Source: Actinomycetota bacterium (GTDB taxonomy: Bacteria; Actinomycetota; CADDZG01; WHSQ01). Taken from it: a DNA stretch of 64,000 bases. This document shows, piece by piece, positions 12,586 to 27,296 of this stretch. The notes beneath the pieces were generated by a model that had not been told where the DNA came from, did not search any database, and saw only the letters and a program-made list of their open reading frames with translations. The position numbers were made by a program, and so were the translations under genes. Each line of letters starts with the position of its first letter. Positions within the stretch are counted from its first letter, which is position 1. The stretch covers positions 1 to 64,000 of the forward strand of contig WHTI01000002.1 of the NCBI GenBank assembly GCA_009377815.1. The letters are read 5' to 3'.

Positions 12586-15500
12586 ATGGGGGACCCGACA
12601 GAGCGGCCGGAAGTGACGGACTTAGGCATGGGCCGAAAGAAGCTTGTCGTTGATGCCGTCGAACGATGGATCGCACGACTTATTGACCTTTCCAGAAGGA
12701 ATAGTCTTCTCTATTACCGGCCGCTTAAGGTCGGCACCCTGGAGCTCACAGATTGCGATGAGGAAGAGCTCAACGGGTTGCTCCATGGCCGGAAGCTCCG
12801 ATTGTCTTCCCTTGTTGAGCCGGAAGAGGAAGAGCAGGCGTCAGGGAAGCTCCAGGAGATCCGTCGTAAGGCATTGGCCAACCTTGAGGAGAAGGGGCTA
12901 GAGACCCTCTTCCTGGCGGTCGGAATGGCCACGTGGGATCCGGCGGACGAGGGCCGTCCCCCTGAATCACCTGTATTGCTTCTTCCAATGGAGATCGAGG
13001 GAAGGGGTCGGGAAACCCGCAGCCTCTCTCTAAGGCGCAGCGGGGATGCTCAAATCAACCCCGTACTGCTCCACATTCTCAACGCCGAGATGGATGTTGG
13101 GATAACGGAGGAGGGCCTTCTCAGTGTCGACGCAGCAACAGATACCGACAAGCTTGATCCTTCCGTCGTCTTCTCGCGGCTAAATTCCGCGGCGTCGGGG
13201 GTTAAGGGGTTCCGAACCGATCGCAAGATAGTGCTCGGTAACTTCTCGTTCCAGAAGATGGCGATGGTTAAGGACCTAAGGGAGAACCTCGACCAGCTCG
13301 TTACACACGATCTCATTGCAGCCATCGCCGGGGATCCAGGTGCGCGCGAGTCTGTTCTGAGTGACCGACTCGGAGTTGATCTGGAGGAACTTGACCTAAT
13401 TCCGGCCGACGAGGAGTTCCTCGTACTCGACGCTGACTCCAGTCAGCAACGCGTGATCAGGTGCGTGCAATCGTCCCAGGACGGTGTGATTCACGGTCCT
13501 CCAGGCACAGGGAAGAGTCAGACTATTTCGAATCTCATTGCTGCCTTGGCGGTTCAAGGGAAGCGTGTCCTCTTCGTCGCCGAGAAGAGAGCTGCCCTCG
13601 AAGTCGTGCTCCGAAGGTTAGAGAATCTCGGTTTGGGCCATCTAGCGCTGGACCTGCACGGGGCAACTACCACGCGTCGTGAGGTCATGGGCCGGATCAG
13701 TCATAGCCTGGACATCATCCGCGAAAGCACCCCGGCAGACGTCGAGAATGCGCACCGAAGGTTCGAGGACCGACGGATAAAACTCAATGAGCATGCAAGA
13801 AGGATGCATCAGCCCCAACCCCCAGCTGGTTTGGGTATCTACGAGATCCAGGGGCGCCTTTTGCGTCTATCTGAGGGAGTCAAGAGCACCCTGCGGTGGA
13901 GTGAATCAGAGCTACTCCGACTCGATCGAGTTGTCATCGACGAGGTAAAGGACCTACTCCTTGATCTCGGTTCCGCGTACCGCAGCCTTTTTCTACGCAA
14001 CGACGACTCTCCCTGGAATGGTGCCGTAATCCCGTCGGGGGAGCGGGCGCAGGAGGTAGTAAGAACCGTTCGCGAGCTCCTTCAATACTGGCCTCAGATG
14101 GAGGCTGCTCTCTCGGGTTCGGTCCGAGAGGCTGCGGTGCCTCCGCCAATGACAGTCGAGGGTTCGGAGCGAGCTGCAACGATTTTCGGCCGAGCGAATT
14201 CAAAGTTGGACGAGTACGAGCCTGATTTGTTCCAGCACATCGCTGGGAATCTGGTCGAGGCACTCGAGCCAGCTTCGGGGGGAGTTCTTTCACGAACTCT
14301 GGCATATCTGTTTAACGGTAGGTATAGAGCAGCGCGGAAGCTCCTGCTTGGTGTGAGAAAGGGCGGGAATGCTCCTAGCCCCCTTCTCCTTGAGGAGGCC
14401 AGAGCTGCTCTTGAGATCGCCCGCGCTTGGGGGTCGCTAGGCGCGGTCAATGATCTCCCCAAGGAAGTCCCGTCCGCCGAATCTCTGGAGAGAACGATCG
14501 GAGTAGTCAAGCCCATGCTCCTGATCCTGGCATCAGCTCTTGAGGAGGATCTTCTTCGGGTTCCGCTTCCATCACTACGGGACCTGTTCCGGGCGCTAGC
14601 CAGCGATGACATAACTCCTCATCGTTTACCTCGACTATTCGATATGGAGAGGAGACTCACTGACCTGGGGATGGGAGACGTAGTTATCCACCTCCGTGAA
14701 ACCATGCCCCCGTCCAACGAATGGGGGTCGGTCGTAGAGCATGCGTGGCTGTCATCCATGATAGATGTCGCAAGACAAAACGACTCACAAGTGGCGGGTT
14801 TTGACGGGCGGGCGCAGGACGCGCTCGTGGACGACTTCAAGCAGCTCGATAGGCTTCGACTGGATCTAGCTGTCGCTCGTGTCAGAAGGATGCATGCTGA
14901 GACAGCAGTCGCCGCCCGCAACGCGCATCCTGGCCAGGATCAGATCGTGAGCCGACAGGCGAGACTAAAAACCCGGCATCAGCCGTTGCGCAAGACGTTT
15001 GAGGAAGCGTCAGACGTATTGACGGCCTTACGGCCTTGCTGGATGGCCAGTCCTTTGACAGTCAGCCAGTTGCTGGGCCCTGCTCGTGCTTTCGACATCG
15101 TCATATTCGACGAAGCCAGTCAGGTTCTTCCACATGACTCGATTCCATCTTTGATGCGGGCGGGAAAGACGGTCGTGGCCGGCGACCGCAATCAACTCCC
15201 ACCGACAACTTTCTTCTTCTACAGCGGAGATGAGGACGAGAGTTCGGAACTTGCTGGACCGGCAGAGGGGTTTGAGAGTCTGCTGGATCTTCTCTCTGCC
15301 TTCCTCGACCCGTGGTCGCTAGATTGGCACTACCGCAGCCGATCCGAAGAGTTGATTTCCTTCTCAAACAGACACATCTACAAGGATCGTCTCGTTACTT
15401 TTCCTTCGGTTGGCGAGTCTCAAGCCGTCACCCACCACTTGATCCCGTGGCGCCCGGTGGATGGGCAGGAGGATAGCTCTTCCGAAGAAGTCTCTAAGGT

Positions 15501-16620
15501 CGTTGATCTCGTCATTGACCATGCAGAGATCATGCTCAAGCGCGCGAAACCTGAAAGAGAGACGTTGGGGGTTATAGCGATGGGCATCAAACATGCTCGT
15601 CGTATCGAGGGAGCTCTGGACGAGGCTTTGCGCGAACGACCTGATCTGGACGAGTTCTTTGATTTGAACGTGACCGAACGCTTCTTTATCAAGAATCTCG
15701 AACGTGTCCAGGGTGACGAGCGAGACGCAATCATCCTGTCAATTGGCTACGGGAAGGATCGGAGTGGCCGATTACCTTACCGGTTCGGACCCCTCCTAAC
15801 GGAGGGCGGCGAACGCCGCCTGAATGTTGCCGTCACAAGAGCTCGTCAGCGCATGATTGTTGTGTCGTCTTTCTCTCATGTAGATATGGATCCGGGTCGA
15901 TCGAGTCGCAGGGGTGTTGAACTCTTGCGTTTGTACCTTCAGTACGCAGAATCGAATGGCAAATTGCTTGGGGACAGGGCGGACACAGGAGTTGCCCTAA
16001 ACGCGTTTGAAGAGGCCGTGAAAATCGCGTTGGAGGAACGAGGGCTGACAATCCTCCCCCAATGGGGGGCCTCGCGATACAGAATCGACTTGGTGGCCGT
16101 CCATCCTGAGAAGCCGGGTCGACCCGTGCTTGCCATTGAATGCGACGGGGCCAGCTATCACTCTGCTCCCACAGCGCGAGACAGAGATCGACTGCGCCAG
16201 CAGCATCTAGAGGCCCTTGGGTGGCGGTTTCACCGAATCTGGTCAACAGACTGGTTCATGAGAAGAGACGAAGAGATTGCCCGAACGCTGCGTGCATTTG
16301 ACGAGGCGGTCACGATTGCCGATCGGCGGGATGGGGGAGAGCCGGATCCAGTTCCTAGGGAAGGGCCACGCTCCCCGCTCGACCACGGGCCTGAACACGG
16401 TGGAGGTGTCCGCTCTGCGCGCCCGAATCTCCGGAAGGGTCTTCCTATAGCCAACTACACCGATGCCCAATTGACGAGGCTTCTGGAGTGGATAGAGAGC
16501 GATGCTCGCCTAAGAACCGATCAGGAGCTCATCCAGGCCATGGTCGAGGAGCTCGGCTACCGGCGGCGTGGCGCGCGTATCGAAGAGCGTCTGCGCCAGG
16601 TGATTACTAGGCATCGGTAG
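12586..16620 (+). CDS. DUF4011-type SF1 helicase with C-terminal Vsr/DUF559-like nuclease
   Basis: RWIARLIDLSRRNSLLYY; Walker A GPPGTGKSQTISNL; DEASQVLPHDSIPSLMRAGKTVVAGDRNQLPPTTFF; LNVAVTRARQRMIVVSSF; YRIDLVAVHPEKPGRPVLAIECDGASYHSAPTARDRDRLRQQHLEALGWRFHRIWSTDWF. Confidence 0.88.
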   Translation: MGDPTERPEVTDLGMGRKKLVVDAVERWIARLIDLSRRNSLLYYRPLKVGTLELTDCDEEELNGLLHGRKLRLSSLVEPEEEEQASGKLQEIRRKALANLEEKGLETLFLAVGMATWDPADEGRPPESPVLLLPMEIEGRGRETRSLSLRRSGDAQINPVLLHILNAEMDVGITEEGLLSVDAATDTDKLDPSVVFSRLNSAASGVKGFRTDRKIVLGNFSFQKMAMVKDLRENLDQLVTHDLIAAIAGDPGARESVLSDRLGVDLEELDLIPADEEFLVLDADSSQQRVIRCVQSSQDGVIHGPPGTGKSQTISNLIAALAVQGKRVLFVAEKRAALEVVLRRLENLGLGHLALDLHGATTTRREVMGRISHSLDIIRESTPADVENAHRRFEDRRIKLNEHARRMHQPQPPAGLGIYEIQGRLLRLSEGVKSTLRWSESELLRLDRVVIDEVKDLLLDLGSAYRSLFLRNDDSPWNGAVIPSGERAQEVVRTVRELLQYWPQMEAALSGSVREAAVPPPMTVEGSERAATIFGRANSKLDEYEPDLFQHIAGNLVEALEPASGGVLSRTLAYLFNGRYRAARKLLLGVRKGGNAPSPLLLEEARAALEIARAWGSLGAVNDLPKEVPSAESLERTIGVVKPMLLILASALEEDLLRVPLPSLRDLFRALASDDITPHRLPRLFDMERRLTDLGMGDVVIHLRETMPPSNEWGSVVEHAWLSSMIDVARQNDSQVAGFDGRAQDALVDDFKQLDRLRLDLAVARVRRMHAETAVAARNAHPGQDQIVSRQARLKTRHQPLRKTFEEASDVLTALRPCWMASPLTVSQLLGPARAFDIVIFDEASQVLPHDSIPSLMRAGKTVVAGDRNQLPPTTFFFYSGDEDESSELAGPAEGFESLLDLLSAFLDPWSLDWHYRSRSEELISFSNRHIYKDRLVTFPSVGESQAVTHHLIPWRPVDGQEDSSSEEVSKVVDLVIDHAEIMLKRAKPERETLGVIAMGIKHARRIEGALDEALRERPDLDEFFDLNVTERFFIKNLERVQGDERDAIILSIGYGKDRSGRLPYRFGPLLTEGGERRLNVAVTRARQRMIVVSSFSHVDMDPGRSSRRGVELLRLYLQYAESNGKLLGDRADTGVALNAFEEAVKIALEERGLTILPQWGASRYRIDLVAVHPEKPGRPVLAIECDGASYHSAPTARDRDRLRQQHLEALGWRFHRIWSTDWFMRRDEEIARTLRAFDEAVTIADRRDGGEPDPVPREGPRSPLDHGPEHGGGVRSARPNLRKGLPIANYTDAQLTRLLEWIESDARLRTDQELIQAMVEELGYRRRGARIEERLRQVITRHR

Positions 16621-16823
16621 GATCCAGTCGAAAGGTGCAAGTGGTTCAGCAGAGACCGTTCGGACTCATCGTGGGCGATGTGAGAAGCCCATCTGTAATC
16701 CCATTGGCAGCCGGATGGGACTGATTCGAGAATCGAGCCTAGAGACTCATCTTCCAACCGAGGAATGTGATGTACTGGCGTTCGTCTCGTTCGGGATCGA
16801 TGACTCTCTTAAGCTGGCTAACG

Positions 16824-17346
16824 TCAATCTGTGAACGAGATCGTCCGTCGAAGATCTTTCATCAGGAGCAGCAAGTGAAGCGGATCGGTCGGACTCTCCT
16901 CGAAGTCGGCAAGCCCCATGTAGAAGCTGCTTTGCAGCGTCCCCTTCGCAATGGATCAGGAGGGCTCTCACTCCAATCTCCTGTGACGCGACGTCAACTC
17001 TGCGCAGTGCGTCTACTACGAGGGCGCGGCCCAAGCCGCCCCCTTGTTCTGAGATATCAACACCCAACCGCGTCAGTATTACGACAGGGATCGGGTACTG
17101 GCTGGCCCCCTTCTTCATTCGCTCAGGCGCGTTTTCGAGGAGAACTGCACCAGTGGCGAGCGCGTAGTACCCGACCACGACACCGTCTTCGATTCGGCAG
17201 ACCACTTGTACCCGGCTAGTTCCGGACTGGTGAGCCGCCAAGCCGTGCTTTCTAAGCCAATTTGTCTGAGCCTCCGACCCACAGTCGAAGTCCGAGACGC
17301 GGTGAGAAACGTCCAGGGGCTCGACCGGGCTATATCGTGAAGTCAC
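16824..17346 (-). pseudogene. TacT-like GNAT toxin, frameshifted
   Basis: Intact N-terminal part (FDCGSEAQTNWLRKHGLAAHQSG...LTRLGVDISEQGGGLGRALVVDALRR...RALLIHCEGDAAKQ); expected C-terminus FYMGLADFEESPTDPLHLLLLMKDLRRTISFTD* is in another frame, a +1 shift near 16926. Confidence 0.75.
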
Positions 17347-17639
17347 TCCTCATCAAGAACATTGCTTGCTTCCAAGAGTTTGCGTAGTCGGGGCAGTTCT
17401 TGGGCAGGGCGATCGAGAATGTCGATGAATGCTTTCCATCGGTCTTCTGACAACACAAAGGAACGCCGATCTGCGAGGACATCTTCAGCAGCCCGGGTCG
17501 CAGATCGCAAGACAAAGTCGGAGACCGTGGTCCCTTCGACCTGGCTGGCTTCCTTGAGTAAGGTGCGCTGCTTAGGGTTGGCGCGAAGACTCAGGCGCTC
17601 TGACTTCGCCGTTTTTGAATCATCTTGTTCGATCGACAT
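17343..17639 (-). CDS. DUF1778 antitoxin (TacA-like)
   Basis: AKSERLSLRANPKQRTLLKEASQVEGTTVSDFVLRSATRAAEDVLADRRSFVLSEDRWKAFIDILDRP; ATGA overlap with the GNAT gene. Confidence 0.88.
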   Translation of the reverse strand: MSIEQDDSKTAKSERLSLRANPKQRTLLKEASQVEGTTVSDFVLRSATRAAEDVLADRRSFVLSEDRWKAFIDILDRPAQELPRLRKLLEASNVLDEE

Positions 17640-17672
17640 TTGGCTCCCTCCTGAGATCCGCATTGTACGCCT

Positions 17673-17686
17673 GATGTACGTACATC
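17673..17686. promoter_or_regulatory. putative TacA operator, perfect palindrome GATGTACGTACATC
   Basis: 14-bp perfect palindrome 34 bp upstream of the antitoxin start. Confidence 0.5.
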
Positions 17687-17802
17687 TCAACGTCACTAAG
17701 AAACCTCACTGCTAAGAGAGGGCCAGTTACGAGAATCTCCAGGGGCATAGTTGAATGTGCGTTCGACCTCAAGGATGCCCTTGATTGACTCAGCCGACCG
17801 AA

Positions 17803-19170: not shown

Positions 19171-19860
19171 TTACCCCGCTTTCATCGAGTTAGGTGGATC
19201 GATCCGGCACCACCCGTTCTCTGTGACGATGACGTGATCGACGAATCGCAAACCGACACGGGCGGCGGCCAGCTGCAAGTCGCGGGTGCAGGCGGCATCT
19301 TCGCTGCTCGGTTTGGGGTTGCCCGACGGGTGGTTGTGTGCCACGGCGAACGCGGACCCTCCAGCGCTGAGAACGGCCCTAAGCACATCGCGGGTCTCGA
19401 CCAAGCAGCGGGTATCGGTGCCGACCGTCAGTCGCTGCACCTTGATCACGTGGTTGACCGTATTGAGGACCAGGACCAGTGCGATCTCACGCTCTCCGTG
19501 AGTGAACTCACGCTTGACGATCGCGGCGATGTCACCTGAGTCTCTGATGGCGATCGGGGTCGGTGCCGAGTCGGCCGCCGCCCGCCGGCCGAGTTCGAAG
19601 GCTGCCACCAGGCCGGAGGCTTTCGCGGTTCCCATCGCGTGGGTGCCGGCGAGGCGATTGAGTGCAGCCTTTGCCAGGCCCGTGATTCCGCCCTCCTCGG
19701 CGATCAGTGATTCGGCGAGCTGCAGGGCGCTGACGCCCGGGCCTCCGCTCCGAAGGATCAGGGCGAGGATCTCGGCGTCGGTCAGGGCCGCCGCCCCGAG
19801 CCGGTCGAGGCGCTCACGGGGCCGGTCTCTGGCGGGGATCCTGGCCATCGGGGTGCTCAT
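19171..19860 (-). CDS. radC: RadC-family JAB/MPN domain protein
   Basis: PRERLDRLGAAALTDAEILALILRSG; AFAVAHNHPSGNPKPSSEDAACTRDLQLAAARVGLRFVDHVIV. Confidence 0.92.
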   Translation of the reverse strand: MSTPMARIPARDRPRERLDRLGAAALTDAEILALILRSGGPGVSALQLAESLIAEEGGITGLAKAALNRLAGTHAMGTAKASGLVAAFELGRRAAADSAPTPIAIRDSGDIAAIVKREFTHGEREIALVLVLNTVNHVIKVQRLTVGTDTRCLVETRDVLRAVLSAGGSAFAVAHNHPSGNPKPSSEDAACTRDLQLAAARVGLRFVDHVIVTENGWCRIDPPNSMKAG

Positions 19861-19968: not shown

Positions 19969-22005
19969 ATGAACCACAGTCAGATCGTTTCCTTCATCTG
20001 GGGGGTCGCCGACCTCATCCGCGACACCTTCAAGCGGGGCAAATACCAGGACGTCATCCTGCCGCTGACCGTCCTGCGCCGCATCGATTGCGTGCTGGCC
20101 CCCACCAAGGAGAAGGTGCTCGCCACCAATGCCAAGATGAAGGAGAAGGGACTCGCGAACCCGGACCTCCAGCTTCGGAGGGCGTCGGGATACGCCTTCT
20201 ACAACACCTCCAAACACGACTTCCAGTCGGTGCTCGGGGACGCCGCCAACCTGAAGCGCAACCTGCTCCGCTACATCGATGACTTCTCGCCCAACATGAA
20301 AGAGGTCCTCGAGCGGTTCGACTTCCGCAACACGATTGAGAAACTCGACGAAGCGGGTCTGCTGTTCAAGGTCGTCGAGCGCTTCAAGGGCGTCGACCTG
20401 CATCCCGACCTCGTCGACAACGCCACGATGGGGACGATTTTCGAAGAGCTGATCCGCAAGTTCAACGAGGCCCTCAACGAGAATCCCGGCGAGCACTTCA
20501 CCCCGCGTGACGTCGTTGGGCTCATGGTCGAACTCCTCTTGGCGGGCGACGAGGACCTCCTTTCCAACCCCCACAAGGTGGTCAAGATCTGTGACCCTTG
20601 CTGCGGCTCGGGCGGCATGCTCACGCTCGCCAAGGAGCACATCGAAGCATCGGCGGACAAACACGCCGAGGTCCATCTCTTTGGTCAGGAGGTCAACCCC
20701 GAGACCTACGCGATCTGCAAAGCAGACCTCTTCATGAAGTCGGAGGACGGTCGCGACGGCGACAACATCGCCTTCGGCTCCACGCTGTCGGCCGATCGCC
20801 ATGCCGGTTTGGGCTTCGAGTACCTCATCGCCAATCCGCCCTACGGCAAGGACTGGAAGCGTGATGAGGACGAGGTAAGGGCGGAATACGAGAAGGGGGA
20901 GGCCGGGCGCTTCCCCGCCGGGCTCCCGCGCATCTCCGACGGCCAGCTCCTGTTCCTGCAGCACATGGTTGCCCGCATGGCTTCACCCGAAGAGGGCGGG
21001 GGCCGCGTCGCCATCATCATGAACGGCTCACCCCTGTTCACCGGGGATGCCGGCAGCGGCGAGAGCGAGATCCGTCGCTGGGTGATCGAGAACGATTGGC
21101 TCGAAGCCATCATCGCCATGCCCGAGCAGCTCTTCTACAACACCGGGATCGCCACTTACGTATGGGTGCTGACCAACCGCAAGCAGCCTGCCCGCAAGGG
21201 CAAGGTGCAGTTGATCGATGCGACGAGCTTCTGGACCCCGATGCGCCGGAGCCTCGGAGACAAGCGGCGCGAGATCCCCGCCGACAAGGCCGCCGAGATC
21301 CTCGCCCTCTACCGCTCCGCCGAGGAGCAGGATCACTGCAAGATCTTCGACGCCGAAACCTTCGGCTACCGCAAGATCACCGTCGAGCGCCCACTGCGCC
21401 TCAACTTCCAAGCCAGCCCTGAGCGCATCGCACGCCTCGAGGATCAGAAGGCGTTCGCCGGACTTTCAGTTAGCAAGAAGAAAGACGAGAAGGTCAAGGC
21501 TGCCGAGGAGGAAGAGGGCCGCAAGCGCCAGGACGAGATCCGCATGTTCCTGAACACACTCCCGGACTCGCCCTTCACCGACCGAGCCGAGTTCGTTGCC
21601 CTTCTGGACAAGAAGCTGAAAGACGCAAAGCTCAAGCTCGCAGCTCCGCTGAAGAAGGCCATCCTGTCGGCGCTTTCGGAACGAGACGAGGAGGCGGGGC
21701 CGTGCCTCGACGGAGATGGCAACCCTGAGCCCGATCCGGACCATCGTGATTACGAGAACGTGCCTCTGTCTGAGAGCGTGCGCGACTTCTTTGATCGAGA
21801 GGTTAGGCCCTACATCGACGACGCATGGATCAACGAATCGATCCGAGACATCAAAGACGGTGAGATTGGCAAGGTCGGCTACGAGATCAATTTCAACCGC
21901 TACTTCTACGTCTACGAACCGCCCCGACCACTAGAGGAGATCAAGGCCGAAATAAGGGAGCTCGAAAGCGAAATAGTCGATTTGCTCGGACAGGTCGCAT
22001 TGTGA
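19969..22005 (+). CDS. hsdM: Type I restriction-modification methyltransferase subunit
   Basis: FTPRDVVGLMVELL, VKICDPCCGSGGMLTLAKEHI, EYLIANPPYGKDW. Confidence 0.95.
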   Translation: MNHSQIVSFIWGVADLIRDTFKRGKYQDVILPLTVLRRIDCVLAPTKEKVLATNAKMKEKGLANPDLQLRRASGYAFYNTSKHDFQSVLGDAANLKRNLLRYIDDFSPNMKEVLERFDFRNTIEKLDEAGLLFKVVERFKGVDLHPDLVDNATMGTIFEELIRKFNEALNENPGEHFTPRDVVGLMVELLLAGDEDLLSNPHKVVKICDPCCGSGGMLTLAKEHIEASADKHAEVHLFGQEVNPETYAICKADLFMKSEDGRDGDNIAFGSTLSADRHAGLGFEYLIANPPYGKDWKRDEDEVRAEYEKGEAGRFPAGLPRISDGQLLFLQHMVARMASPEEGGGRVAIIMNGSPLFTGDAGSGESEIRRWVIENDWLEAIIAMPEQLFYNTGIATYVWVLTNRKQPARKGKVQLIDATSFWTPMRRSLGDKRREIPADKAAEILALYRSAEEQDHCKIFDAETFGYRKITVERPLRLNFQASPERIARLEDQKAFAGLSVSKKKDEKVKAAEEEEGRKRQDEIRMFLNTLPDSPFTDRAEFVALLDKKLKDAKLKLAAPLKKAILSALSERDEEAGPCLDGDGNPEPDPDHRDYENVPLSESVRDFFDREVRPYIDDAWINESIRDIKDGEIGKVGYEINFNRYFYVYEPPRPLEEIKAEIRELESEIVDLLGQVAL

Positions 22006-23237
22006 ATCCTCCTCTTCTAAGGCTCAAACACATCGCTGCAATCAGAGCCAGCAATGTGGACAAGAAGTCTGTTGAGGGAGACATCCCGGTCAGCCTGTGC
22101 AACTACGTTGATGTCTACAAGAACGATCTGATTTCGAGCGATATGGAGTTCATGAGGGCGACCGCAACTGCCTCGCAATTAAGAGTGTTCGAACTTCGTC
22201 GCGGTGACGTGCTGATTACAAAGGATTCAGAGACGGCTGATGACATCGGAGTTCCAGCTTATGTACCCGAGGATCTAGATGGCGTTGTTTGTGGTTACCA
22301 CTTGTCTATCCTTCGAGCCAACCCCCGAATAGTGGATTCCGCTTTCTTGGCCTGGGTACTCAGGTCGGACTCCGCCCGGCAACACTTCACCGCAATGGCG
22401 AACGGGATCACTCGTTTTGCCATCGGCTACTCCGATATCGGGAGCTTGTCGATTCCGCTCCCGCCGTTGGATAGGCAGCAGGCGATTGCGCGGATCTTGG
22501 ACGAAGAAGCCGCCAAGATAGACGCCCTCATTGAAATGAAGGACAAGTTGAAGGACTTGCTTCACGACGAAACAGAAACCTTGCTAGCTATGCGCCTTTG
22601 GCCAGATCCACTACCTTCAAATTGGCGGATGACGCCGCTTATGCGCCTAACACAATCGGATCGTCCCATCATGTACGGCATCGTGCTCCCTGGCCCCAAC
22701 GTGACGACGGGCGTGCCATTGGTTAAGGGCGGTGACGTCAGTAACGGAAGACTCAATCTCGACGTGCTGAACAAGACCGGTTATGAGATTGAGGCTCCAT
22801 TTGCTCGCGCTAGGCTCAAAGGCGGAGATGTTGTTCTCACGATCCGGGGCAAGTATGGCGACTGCGCTTTGGTCCCCGATCAATTATTGGGGGCAAACAT
22901 CACGCAAGATATCGCCCGGATTTCGCCGCGTAAATCCGTAAATGGTTTGTGGCTGTTGCGAGTTCTCCAATCGAGGCCAATAAGAGAGAAGATCTCAAAT
23001 GAGGCTTTGGGGGCAGCCGTCCAGGGAGTGAATATTCGAGATGTGAAGAGATATCGAGTGCCAGTTCCGCCGCTTGACGAGCAAGGCGCCCTGGTCGCCG
23101 AGATCGAGAGACACCTCAAACGCGTGACTGAGATATCGGCGCAACTTGATGCAGCTCGGACCAAACTTGTTGAGTACCGAGCGGCCTTCATAACAGCTGC
23201 GGTTACCGGGGAGATCGATGTGGGGAGTGCGGCGTGA
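22002..23237 (+). CDS. hsdS: Type I restriction-modification specificity subunit
   Basis: Two TRD-like halves each ended by PLPPLDRQQAIARILDEEAAKIDALIE and PVPPLDEQGALVAEIERHLKRVTEI; GTGA overlap with hsdM. Confidence 0.92.
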   Translation: MNPPLLRLKHIAAIRASNVDKKSVEGDIPVSLCNYVDVYKNDLISSDMEFMRATATASQLRVFELRRGDVLITKDSETADDIGVPAYVPEDLDGVVCGYHLSILRANPRIVDSAFLAWVLRSDSARQHFTAMANGITRFAIGYSDIGSLSIPLPPLDRQQAIARILDEEAAKIDALIEMKDKLKDLLHDETETLLAMRLWPDPLPSNWRMTPLMRLTQSDRPIMYGIVLPGPNVTTGVPLVKGGDVSNGRLNLDVLNKTGYEIEAPFARARLKGGDVVLTIRGKYGDCALVPDQLLGANITQDIARISPRKSVNGLWLLRVLQSRPIREKISNEALGAAVQGVNIRDVKRYRVPVPPLDEQGALVAEIERHLKRVTEISAQLDAARTKLVEYRAAFITAAVTGEIDVGSAA

Positions 23238-26200
23238 ACCTCGATATCTCGGAGCGGAACTTCGAAGAGGTTGTTGAGGCTTCGTTGCTCCGGGGTGGGC
23301 CCGATGCGATGGCCGTCGCCGGCATGGTGGCGGAACCTGAGGCTCCCTACGGGCTCTATGCCGCGGGCGGGTACGTCAAGCGCTCGTACAAGGACTACGA
23401 CCGGTCGCTGTGCCTCGATACCGAGATGCTCGTGCGCTTCGCTCAGGCCTCGCAGCCCAAAGAGTGGGACCGGCTCAAGTCCCACTACGGTGATGAGGTC
23501 CGGGAGCGCTTCGCCAAGCGTGTGGCATCGGAGGTCGAGAAGCGGGGGCTGATCGACGTCCTCCGTAAGGGAGTCAAGGACGCCGGTGTCAAGTTCGAGA
23601 TGTACCACCCGCGGCCTCCGAGCACACTGAACCCGGACCTCCAGACCCTCTACGAGGCGAACCTCTTCTCGGTCATCCGGCAGCTGCGGTATTCGACGAG
23701 CAACGAGAACTCGATCGACGTGGTGCTGTTTCTCAACGGCTTGCCGATCTTCACCTCCGAGCTCAAGAACCCCTTCAACGGCCAGGACGTTAACAACGCG
23801 GTCCACCAGTACTGCTACGACCGCGATCCGCGCGAGCCACTGCTGTCGTTCGGGCGGGTGATCGCGCACTTCGCCGTCGATCCCGAGCTGGCCTTCGTGA
23901 CGACCAAGCTCGAGGGGCCGAAGACCCACTTCCTGCCCTTCAATCAGGGCTACGACAACGGCGCCGGCAATCGGCCCACGAAGACCGGTTTTGCGACGCA
24001 GTACCTCTGGGACCATGTGTGGTCGAAGGACTCGGTGCTGGAGCTGGTGCAGCGCTTCGTCCACGTGCTCGAGGAGGAGGACGACAAGGGGCGCAAGACC
24101 GGCAAGAAGTCGCTGATCTTTCCCCGTTACCACCAGCTCGACGCGGTGCGCCGACTGGTGCTCGACGCGCTGCAGAACGGCGCCGGTCCCGACTACCTGA
24201 TCCAGCATTCCGCCGGCAGCGGCAAGTCCAACACGATCGCGTGGCTGGCGCACCAGCTCTCCACGCTTCACGATGCGAGCGACGAGCGCGTCTTCGACTC
24301 GATCATCGTGATCACCGACCGGCGCGTGCTCGATCGCCAGCTGCAGAGAACGATCCGGCAGTTCGAGCAGACTCTCGGCGTGGTCGAGAACATCGATAAG
24401 ACATCGCGCCAGCTCAAGGAAGCTCTCGAGTCGGGCAAAACGATCATCGTCACCACACTGCAGAAGTTTCCGATGATCGTGAAGGAGATCGGCGAGCTGC
24501 CGGGAAAGCAGTTCGCGCTGATCATCGACGAGGCGCACTCCTCGCAGACGGGGGAGACCTCCCGGATGATGCACCAGGTACTCAAGGTCGATTCGTTGGA
24601 GGAGGCCGAAGAGCAGGATCAGGTCGAGGAAGACCTCGAGGACCGCATCGTTAAGGTCGCCGAGGGGCGCGGTCGGCTCGACAACGTTTCGATGTTCGCC
24701 TTCACCGCGACGCCGAAGGAGAAGACCCTTCAGATGTTCGGCGAGGAACGGGAGGACGGATCCTACGAGCCGTTCTCCCTGTACTCGATGAAGCAGGCGA
24801 TCGAGGAGGGCTTCATCCTCGATGTGCTGCGCAACTACACGACCTACCGGGTGTACTGGAACCTGCTCAAGAAGATCGAGGACGACCCCCGCTACAACGA
24901 GCGCAAGGCGAAATATCTGGCCCGGCTGTTCGTCGACCTCCATCCCCACGCGATCGACGAGAAGGTCGCGATCATGGCCGAGCACTTCGCCCAGAACTCG
25001 GCACCGGAGATCGGCGGCCGGGCCAAGGCGATGGTTGTGACCCGCTCGCGCCTGCATGCGGTCAAGACGTTCCTGTCGCTGAGGCGCTACCTCGAAGAGC
25101 ACGGACACCCGTTCAAGGCGCTGGTGGCGTTCTCCGGTGAGGTCGACGACGGGGGGATCAAGTACACCGAGACCGGTCTCAACGGGTTCTCCGAGAAGCA
25201 GACGGCCCTCGTGTTCAAACAGCCGGAGTACCGCTTCCTGGTGGTGGCCGAGAAGTTCCAGACCGGCTTCGATGAGCCGCTGCTCCACACGATGTACGTG
25301 GACAAGAAGCTGTCTGGGCTCAATGCGGTCCAGACCCTGTCCCGGCTCAATCGGATCCATCGCGACAAGACTGAGACGATGGTGCTCGACTTCGTGAACG
25401 AGGCCGACGACATCCAGAGTGCATTCGCCCGCTACTACGAGGCCTCGATCCTCTCGGAGGGAGCCGACCCGCATCTCCTCTACGACCTGCAGCGGACGCT
25501 CCTCGATAGCGAGGTCTTCGACGAGGACGAGGTCAGGGCGTTCGCCGAGGTCTTCTTCGACCCAAAGGGAAGCCAGGACCGGCTCTACCAGGTGCTCAGG
25601 GAACCGGAGCGGCGCTACAAGGATCTCGCCGAGGAGGACCAGGCGGCGTTCCGCAAGGAGATCACCTCGTTCACCCGGATGTACGCGTTCCTGTCGCAGG
25701 TGGCGACGTTCGTCGACGCCGACCTCGAGAGCCTCTATCACTTCGCCCGCTATCTGCTCCGGCGGTTGCCGACCGAGCAGAAGGGCCTCCCCTATGAGGT
25801 CCAGCAGGCGATCGACCTCGAGTCGTTCAGCGTCCGCGAGACCTTCGGCGGGTCGATCGCGCTCGGTGCCGACAAGGGGCGGCTGGAGCCTCCGGGCAAG
25901 GGGGTCGATGTCGAGCCGAGTCCGGAGGAGAAGGAAGCCCTGTCCCAGATCATCGACGAGTTGAACGAGCGCTTCGGGACCAGCTTCACCGCCGAGGACA
26001 AGGTGTTCGTCGAGGAGCTGGAGAACCGCTTGGTCGATCATGCCGGCCTCGAGGCCAGCATCCGGGCCAACACACCGGAGAACGCCCGTCTGACCTTCGA
26101 CCATGTCATCGAGGACCTGCTTCAGGACATGGTCGACAAGAACTTCGAGCTCTACAAACGGGTCACCGACGATGAGCGCTTCGGGGACTTCTTCAAGGAC

Positions 26201-26572
26201 GAGCTCTACAAACGTTACCGAAAGCAGGTCGAGAGCAGCCCACCCGGACCCAGAGTGCCTTCGATCGTCGACGCGGTGGTCGATGCATTGGTCAAGGAGC
26301 TGGCTCCGGAGAAGGTGATCCTTTTCGGATCGGGGGCGCGCGGAGAGTTGATCGAGGGCAGCGATCTCGACCTTCTCGTTGTTCTCCCCGAAGTGAGCGA
26401 AGACCGATCTGAGGTCACCCGGGCATACAGGGCCGTGGGTACGGTCAAGGGTCGACCGCCGGTGGATGTTCTCGTCTTCTCATCCCAGGACGTGGCGGAG
26501 TGGGGCGACGTCGTGGGTCACATCATCAACGAAGCCTTGGTCGACGGACGGGTCGTCTATGACGCCGCTTGA
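23234..26572 (+). CDS. hsdR: Type I restriction endonuclease subunit HsdR fused to a C-terminal minimal nucleotidyltransferase (MNT) domain
   Basis: HsdR motifs (TSELKNPFNGQ, IQHSAGSGKSNTIAWLAHQL, LIIDEAHSSQTGE, FTATPKEKTL, NAVQTLSRLNRIH); C-terminal VPSIVDAVVDALVKELAPEKVILFGSGARGELIEGSDLDLLVVLPE has the GSX10DXD MNT signature in the same frame. Confidence 0.93.
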   Translation: MNLDISERNFEEVVEASLLRGGPDAMAVAGMVAEPEAPYGLYAAGGYVKRSYKDYDRSLCLDTEMLVRFAQASQPKEWDRLKSHYGDEVRERFAKRVASEVEKRGLIDVLRKGVKDAGVKFEMYHPRPPSTLNPDLQTLYEANLFSVIRQLRYSTSNENSIDVVLFLNGLPIFTSELKNPFNGQDVNNAVHQYCYDRDPREPLLSFGRVIAHFAVDPELAFVTTKLEGPKTHFLPFNQGYDNGAGNRPTKTGFATQYLWDHVWSKDSVLELVQRFVHVLEEEDDKGRKTGKKSLIFPRYHQLDAVRRLVLDALQNGAGPDYLIQHSAGSGKSNTIAWLAHQLSTLHDASDERVFDSIIVITDRRVLDRQLQRTIRQFEQTLGVVENIDKTSRQLKEALESGKTIIVTTLQKFPMIVKEIGELPGKQFALIIDEAHSSQTGETSRMMHQVLKVDSLEEAEEQDQVEEDLEDRIVKVAEGRGRLDNVSMFAFTATPKEKTLQMFGEEREDGSYEPFSLYSMKQAIEEGFILDVLRNYTTYRVYWNLLKKIEDDPRYNERKAKYLARLFVDLHPHAIDEKVAIMAEHFAQNSAPEIGGRAKAMVVTRSRLHAVKTFLSLRRYLEEHGHPFKALVAFSGEVDDGGIKYTETGLNGFSEKQTALVFKQPEYRFLVVAEKFQTGFDEPLLHTMYVDKKLSGLNAVQTLSRLNRIHRDKTETMVLDFVNEADDIQSAFARYYEASILSEGADPHLLYDLQRTLLDSEVFDEDEVRAFAEVFFDPKGSQDRLYQVLREPERRYKDLAEEDQAAFRKEITSFTRMYAFLSQVATFVDADLESLYHFARYLLRRLPTEQKGLPYEVQQAIDLESFSVRETFGGSIALGADKGRLEPPGKGVDVEPSPEEKEALSQIIDELNERFGTSFTAEDKVFVEELENRLVDHAGLEASIRANTPENARLTFDHVIEDLLQDMVDKNFELYKRVTDDERFGDFFKDELYKRYRKQVESSPPGPRVPSIVDAVVDALVKELAPEKVILFGSGARGELIEGSDLDLLVVLPEVSEDRSEVTRAYRAVGTVKGRPPVDVLVFSSQDVAEWGDVVGHIINEALVDGRVVYDAA

Positions 26573-26945
26573 TCTCGCCAAGGCGTACCTCGCCAAGGGA
26601 CTGGACGACCAGGCACTTCTCGATCGGATCGTCGACGAGAAAGCCATCACGGACGCGATCTTCGGTTTCCATGCGCAGCAGGCTGCTGAGAAGTATCTGA
26701 AGGCGGTTCTAGCGATCGATCAAGAGCGTCCCGAACGTACGCACGATCTCCGCGCGTTGGCCGATCAATGTGAACAGGCGGGGCACCCACTTCCGGACGA
26801 TCTCCATGAGGTGCTGGAGCTCTCTCCCTTCGCAGTCCAAGAGCGTTACCCGTTCGCGCTTACACCCCCGATCGACCGCGGCAAGTCCCTAGGGCTCATT
26901 GCCGACATGTGGCGATGGGCTGAACAGATCGTGGAACATGCGTAG
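26559..26945 (+). CDS. HEPN-domain protein
   Basis: ITDAIFGFHAQQAAEKYLKAVLAIDQERPERTHDLRALADQ...LSPFAVQERYPFALTPP; start overlaps the hsdR stop by 14 nt. Confidence 0.85.
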   Translation: MTPLDLAKAYLAKGLDDQALLDRIVDEKAITDAIFGFHAQQAAEKYLKAVLAIDQERPERTHDLRALADQCEQAGHPLPDDLHEVLELSPFAVQERYPFALTPPIDRGKSLGLIADMWRWAEQIVEHA

Positions 26946-26963: not shown

Positions 26964-27296
26964 ATGAAGGTTCGCTTTTCCATGTCGGTTGGCGATCTTT
27001 CCGGCTACTCCCTGAACAACTTGTACCGACAAGCTGGGATGCCGGAGGGCGCGGTGGCTGAGGAGTCCTCCCCAATCTGGATGTACAAGGAAGTCGAGAT
27101 GGATGCGGTGCCTCGGGAATTCGAGGAGGTGGATATCGGGTTGATGGTCGACTTGCGCGAGGTCCACTCCGTCGTCTGGAATCTGGATGGCTCTGTCGCT
27201 GTAACCCTGAACGACTTCGATACAGATGAGATTGGGACGGAAGAGGAAGGCTTCACTCAGCTACTAGATTCAGGTTGGAAGATCGAGATTGAATAG
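26964..27296 (+). CDS. Hypothetical protein
   Basis: 110-aa ORF immediately after HEPN, same strand; no family recognised. Confidence 0.6.
   Translation: MKVRFSMSVGDLSGYSLNNLYRQAGMPEGAVAEESSPIWMYKEVEMDAVPREFEEVDIGLMVDLREVHSVVWNLDGSVAVTLNDFDTDEIGTEEEGFTQLLDSGWKIEIE

Follow-up and report, generated by a model that had tools for sequence, protein, structure and literature searches.

A Class II HEPN/MNT gene pair joined to hsdR in a type I restriction-modification operon of an Actinomycetota bacterium

HEPN proteins and minimal nucleotidyltransferases (MNTs) form toxin-antitoxin pairs of more than one class. In HepT/MntA type VII systems (Class I, PF01934/PF01909), an MNT with a GSX10DXD motif is encoded upstream of the HEPN gene, and AMPylation has been demonstrated for Class I pairs, the toxicity of Class II pairs lying outside the assays of that study (PMC7641770). 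Class II HEPN proteins belong to PF05168, lack RX4HXY and have a conserved tyrosine (Yao et al. 2020; PMC7641770). The AF0298-like members of the corresponding HEPN-T group retain the arginine but not the histidine of Rx4-6H, and another conserved histidine between helices 2 and 3 is a possible substitute (Anantharaman et al. 2013; PMC3710099). A HEPN-superfamily protein is also found in a type I restriction-modification (RM) operon: PrrC is silenced by the RM enzyme until an anti-restriction factor from a phage sets it free (PMC2610378, PMC3874165, PMC12707154). Here, we describe a locus in positions 1-64,000 of contig WHTI01000002.1 (assembly GCA_009377815.1, Actinomycetota bacterium; this 64,000-nt stretch is hereafter the window), in which a Class II HEPN gene follows an hsdR gene that ends in an MNT domain. 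The locus is best read as an RM-linked toxin-antitoxin pair, unusual in that the putative antitoxin belongs to the restriction subunit.

The window carries a complete plus-strand type I operon, hsdM-hsdS-hsdR, with all three subunits recognized by Pfam and HsdM and HsdS also by PADLOC. The features that concern the fusion and its partner are:
23234..26572, + strand: hsdR-MNT fusion gene, 1112 aa, GTG start, one uninterrupted frame; residues 1 to ~1001 are the HsdR body.
26237..26260, + strand: linker between HsdR and MNT, residues 1002-1009, AlphaFold2 confidence score (pLDDT) <50, between helix 981-1001 and MNT helix 1011-1023.
26258..26569, + strand: MNT domain, residues 1009-1112, PF01909, with the helix/strand order of minimal nucleotidyltransferases in the AlphaFold2 model; ratio of nonsynonymous to synonymous substitution rates (dN/dS) 0.27.
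26327..26371, + strand: GSX10DXD catalytic motif (G1032, S1033, D1044, D1046), read from the sequence.
26465-26467, + strand: third aspartate of the MNT, D1078, read in the same way.
26559..26945, + strand: HEPN gene, 128 aa, Class II (PF05168, E 2.4e-13, and fold matches).
26742..26744, + strand: HEPN His62 (RTHDL), candidate alternative active-site histidine, conserved in the HEPN alignment; role proposed in PMC3710099.
26844..26849, + strand: HEPN Arg96-Tyr97 (ERYP), candidate active-site arginine and candidate AMPylation tyrosine; RY is present in nearly all pairs.

The HsdR body contains the Pfam domains HSDR_N, SWI2_SNF2, ResIII and T1R_D3 (HSDR_N, SWI2_SNF2 and T1R_D3 above the Pfam cut-offs), and its nuclease and SF2 motor motifs are intact: ELKNP (176-180), HSAGSGKS (325-332), DEAH (432-435) and QTLSRLNR (700-707) are almost invariant across 24 relatives. 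A fold search of the PDB returned EcoR124I HsdR as top matches (E 2.8e-20), although HsdRs of that type have no C-terminal MNT. The protein is divergent, given that it reaches 204 bits with the NCBIfam hsdR model TIGR00348, under the cut-off of 285. Among the relatives recovered by a scan for the HsdR tail, most unfused HsdRs stop ~60-90 residues past the point where the conserved C-terminal match begins. The window HsdR does not end there and continues for ~110 residues into a minimal nucleotidyltransferase, with NTP_transf_2 (PF01909) matching residues 1019-1082 (E 3.3e-9, 37.5 bits against a cut-off of 21). The catalytic stretch, FGSGARGELIEGSDLD, comprises residues 1031-1046 (nt 26324-26371), and the catalytic residues are also kept in the second fusion described below (L016) and in unfused pairs. 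In the AlphaFold2 model, which has a modest mean pLDDT of 69, a score that says nothing on domain packing, the final HsdR helix stops at residue 1001, the MNT folds separately and the linker between them is predicted to be short and flexible. The original prediction, made from the window sequence, that the hsdR frame runs on into an MNT with GSX10DXD inside an RM system is thereby confirmed. A strong internal start yielding a free MNT was considered and rejected, as the ribosome-site energies of the candidate starts are near background.

The HEPN ATG lies 14 nt ahead of the end of the hsdR-MNT stop codon, as originally predicted. Comparison of the HEPN AlphaFold2 model with solved structures gave 4nqf, 2hsb (AF0298), 1wol and 1ufb at probabilities of 0.96-1.00, with E-values of only 0.2-0.4 and a model built from just two sequences; a sequence search of the PDB gave no convincing match, and the fold search did better. 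The alignment shows the Class II signature (FHAQQ..EK, THDL and RYP), and the window protein matches PF05168 only, lacks RX4HXY and has the conserved tyrosine. The pair had been assigned to the HepT/MntA type; this assignment did not hold, since the HEPN protein belongs to Class II rather than Class I. The same prediction had found no canonical Rx4-6H in the protein apart from a possible RPERTH. The motif is indeed missing, which is normal for a Class II family, but RPERTH is not a version of it: the arginine five places ahead of the histidine varies in relatives (for example, RVGTFPYVH in L088), and that candidate was rejected. What is conserved instead is the histidine of T/V-H-D and the arginine of RYP. 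His62 in RTHDL, which sits before helix 3, and Arg96 in ERYP appear to fit the AF0298-like pattern. The Class II assignment explains why the catalytic state of the protein was in doubt.

The same fusion occurs in a second genome, the Actinomycetota metagenome-assembled genome (MAG) YX3bin35 (G020; JAUJPC010000002.1), which belongs to the same class as the window genome and to a different family. Its HsdR-MNT protein is encoded in one frame of 1109 aa (L016) and is 65% identical to the window fusion along its length, with a similar proline-rich linker, the same 14-nt MNT/HEPN overlap and a HEPN protein 45% identical to that of the window. Recurrence in another genome, which the original prediction had named as a check, is thus found. 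Between the two loci, dN/dS is ~0.20 for HsdR, 0.27 for MNT and 0.36 for HEPN at a synonymous divergence (dS) of ~1.3-1.5, with purifying selection acting on all three parts. In the tree, the two fused HsdRs group as sisters (support 100/99), which together with the codon-level constraint argues for a single fusion event that was maintained afterwards. In unfused Class II pairs, the overlap between MNT stop and HEPN start is 11-20 nt in most, with 14 nt the commonest. The fused gene retains the 14-nt overlap, so hsdR was joined in frame to the 5' end of an intact MNT-HEPN pair, which was thus captured whole.

The fusion is rare. A scan for the HsdR tail in the contigs of ~85,000 species genomes, which depends on exact short peptide patterns, gave 41 loci, with an MNT in G020 only (the window's own genome being excluded). 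Profile searches of ~1,900 genomes from five phyla (398 from Actinomycetota and, from four other phyla, 399, 348, 347 and 399), with 8-9 first-pass candidates scored per genome, gave >200 MNT matches and no further one in an HsdR-length frame. No HsdR-MNT fusions were found in viral contigs (IMG/VR scan) or plasmids, and no description of one was found in the open-licence papers searched.

Compared with Class II HEPN/MNT pairs, the locus has the same families (PF05168/PF01909), gene order, overlap, GSX10DXD motif, conserved histidine before helix 3 and RYP, and the same lack of RX4H. It is a variant rather than a standard member, given that its MNT is residues 1009-1112 of HsdR and not a free small protein. 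With HepT/MntA it shares a GSX10DXD MNT upstream of the HEPN gene, but the HEPN protein is PF05168 without RX4HXY rather than PF01934 or PF08780 with that motif, and the window MNT scores 24 bits with the NCBIfam MntA model NF047752, below its cut-off of 60. As in PrrC/EcoprrI, a HEPN-superfamily protein in a type I RM operon is proposed to be silenced by the RM enzyme; however, PrrC is an anticodon nuclease that combines ABC-ATPase and HEPN domains and is held in check through complex formation, whereas the window has a small 128-aa HEPN-only protein, no ABC-ATPase and a nucleotidyltransferase antitoxin fused to HsdR. Among solved structures, the window MNT is closest in sequence to Cmr1-MntA (PDB 9z7q, 9z7v and 9z7x; E 1.4e-4), which, judged from the structure name, also has an MntA domain on a defence-complex subunit, although Cmr1 is a subunit of type III CRISPR and not a restriction enzyme.

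We therefore read the locus, with a probability of about 50%, as a toxin-antitoxin pair of the Class II MNT-HEPN kind that is tethered to HsdR and possibly acts as a PrrC-like guard of the RM enzyme. HsdR and HEPN would be synthesized together, as the gene overlap suggests, and the tethered MNT would bind HEPN and AMPylate it, probably at Tyr97, holding it inactive as in HepT/MntA. Once HsdR was lost or degraded, or an anti-restriction protein titrated it, HEPN that had not been modified would attack RNA and growth would stop, much as PrrC is activated upon inhibition of EcoprrI; HsdR would be cutter and safety catch at once. HsdR proteins of types IA and IB are degraded by ClpXP during restriction alleviation, and by analogy a tethered antitoxin would disappear along with HsdR. 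For release, HsdR would have to be removed or inhibited while unmodified HEPN is still being made or is left in store, or the operon would have to be lost by segregation. If this is true, an antitoxin covalently joined to the restriction subunit is another, genetically simple guard design, and the idea of an RM enzyme that senses its own inhibition becomes directly testable with a small cassette. The fusion also places Class II HEPN/MNT pairs, which have been little studied, in a defined defence context. To our knowledge, PrrC and PARIS provide the main known examples of RM enzymes guarded by suicide effectors.

The C-terminal end of HsdR carries a different domain in other members of the same subfamily. 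A Schlafen AlbA_2 domain (PF04326, E down to 9.4e-19) takes the position of the MNT in L052:3091-6678, L040:3-2207 and L104:1-2223, and a C-terminal AlbA_2 was recognized at the same HsdR end, from sequence alone, in L117-L119. The hosts are Acidobacteriota, Chloroflexota, Bacillota and a deltaproteobacterial MAG. That two unrelated domains share one place suggests that accessory effectors are tolerated, and perhaps favoured, at this HsdR end. More tentatively, and at short of even odds, HsdR itself may be the HEPN antitoxin, restricting DNA and keeping an abortive effector AMPylated, so that a phage that sequesters or degrades HsdR triggers arrest; the HsdR C-terminus would then be a general socket for RNA-targeting back-ups.

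Several points weigh against the reading as a tethered pair with a guarding role. HEPN translation is probably coupled to hsdR, given the 14-nt overlap, so that mutational loss of hsdR, for example by a nonsense mutation, should lower HEPN too. This argues against the release through simple hsdR loss that the original prediction allowed for. The toxin is more likely to be set free when HsdR that is already present is inhibited, disassembled or degraded, or when the locus is lost by segregation. The RNase activity of the HEPN protein is uncertain because RX4H is missing, and its AMPylation is likewise uncertain because the pairs tested in PMC7641770 were all Class I. Just two copies of the fusion are known, both from metagenome assemblies, and in G020 the RM function may be lost or the assembly erroneous, since hsdM and hsdS are both split between frames there. 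Unfused pairs are rarely beside RM genes (2/60 against 0/16 control stretches), an enrichment too weak for us to adopt.

Three other explanations were weighed. Because the window genome sits in 485 contigs, as a metagenome assembly would give, a frame error was the first to be considered, in the form of a frameshift or chimera linking hsdR to an adjoining MNT gene. The original prediction had itself named a frameshift at 26220-26265 as what would undo the fusion, but G020, from another family, has the same junction in a single frame and shares the linker and overlap at 65% protein identity with codon-level constraint. We reject an artefact on the evidence of this second genome and regard it as highly improbable. 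A pair that is tethered but guards nothing is harder to dismiss, although we find it unlikely: MNT would neutralize HEPN in the usual way, the fusion would be a frozen accident or serve just addiction or matched expression, and the pair would stabilize the RM locus without sensing HsdR. A single fusion event in one lineage fits this explanation, as does the resemblance of the MNT and the overlap to those of unfused pairs. So do possible internal starts at the MNT boundary (GTG codon 1008 in the window and ATG 1011 in G020), which have ribosome-site energies near background. On the other hand, the in-frame join has survived deep divergence (dS ~1.3-1.5) with the MNT constrained, and relatives repeatedly carry another accessory domain, Schlafen AlbA_2, at this position.

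Still less probable, in our judgement, is a regulatory role instead of a toxin-antitoxin one, in which HEPN would be the subunit that binds the substrate of the nucleotidyltransferase and restriction would be tuned through modification of HsdR, HsdM or a component of the phage. HEPN-like domains do serve nucleotidyltransferases as substrate-binding parts (PMC3710099), and a Class II HEPN without RX4H (PMC7641770) would suit such a role. However, antitoxin-then-toxin order with an overlap is the layout of a toxin-antitoxin pair, HEPN retains the histidine and arginine proposed as an alternative active site, and motif-less HEPN proteins were toxic in a genome-scale screen, according to PMC3710099.

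Several loci related to the fusion were also seen. A member of the window's family, G004, has another type I operon (L088:3738-10166) with an unfused Class II pair placed between its hsdS and hsdR; hsdM is also in two frames there. In G208, a Class II pair follows a partial hsdS. Free MNTs near the fused MNTs occur in the window's family too (G013). The one at L090:5176-5766 (G013:C248) is an orphan with no HEPN after it, possibly left over from a fusion since lost or from the donor pair, and no significant HsdR remnant was found upstream of it. In G020, hsdM and hsdS (L089:10720-14016) are each broken into two parts that lie in different frames.

The window is a defence island, and the other two genes of its operon, which overlap by 4 nt at both the hsdM/hsdS and the hsdS/hsdR boundaries, are:
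19969..22005, + strand: hsdM, type I methyltransferase subunit, 678 aa (PF02384 E 1.2e-59; HsdM_N E 8.3e-23; PADLOC MTase_I E 1.7e-278).
22002..23237, + strand: hsdS, specificity subunit, 411 aa (PF01420 E 2e-15; PADLOC Specificity_I E 1.5e-68).

Upstream, 12586-16620 encodes a DUF4011/AAA/MTES_1575 helicase-nuclease with a strong match to the PADLOC PDC-S37 and Hhe models. At 16747-17696 on the minus strand, a TacA1-like antitoxin (PF08681, 17343-17696) overlaps a GNAT-toxin-like open reading frame (ORF) without a Pfam match, the end of which is perhaps frame-shifted. Downstream, a 110-aa ORF (26964-27296) begins on the same strand 18 nt after the HEPN gene; it had no family match in profile searches and is not present at the G020 locus. 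A radC-family gene lies near hsdM at both fusion loci, at 19171-19860 (minus strand) in the window, where it was identified by a family model, and at L089:15400-16080 in G020, where it was identified by sequence.

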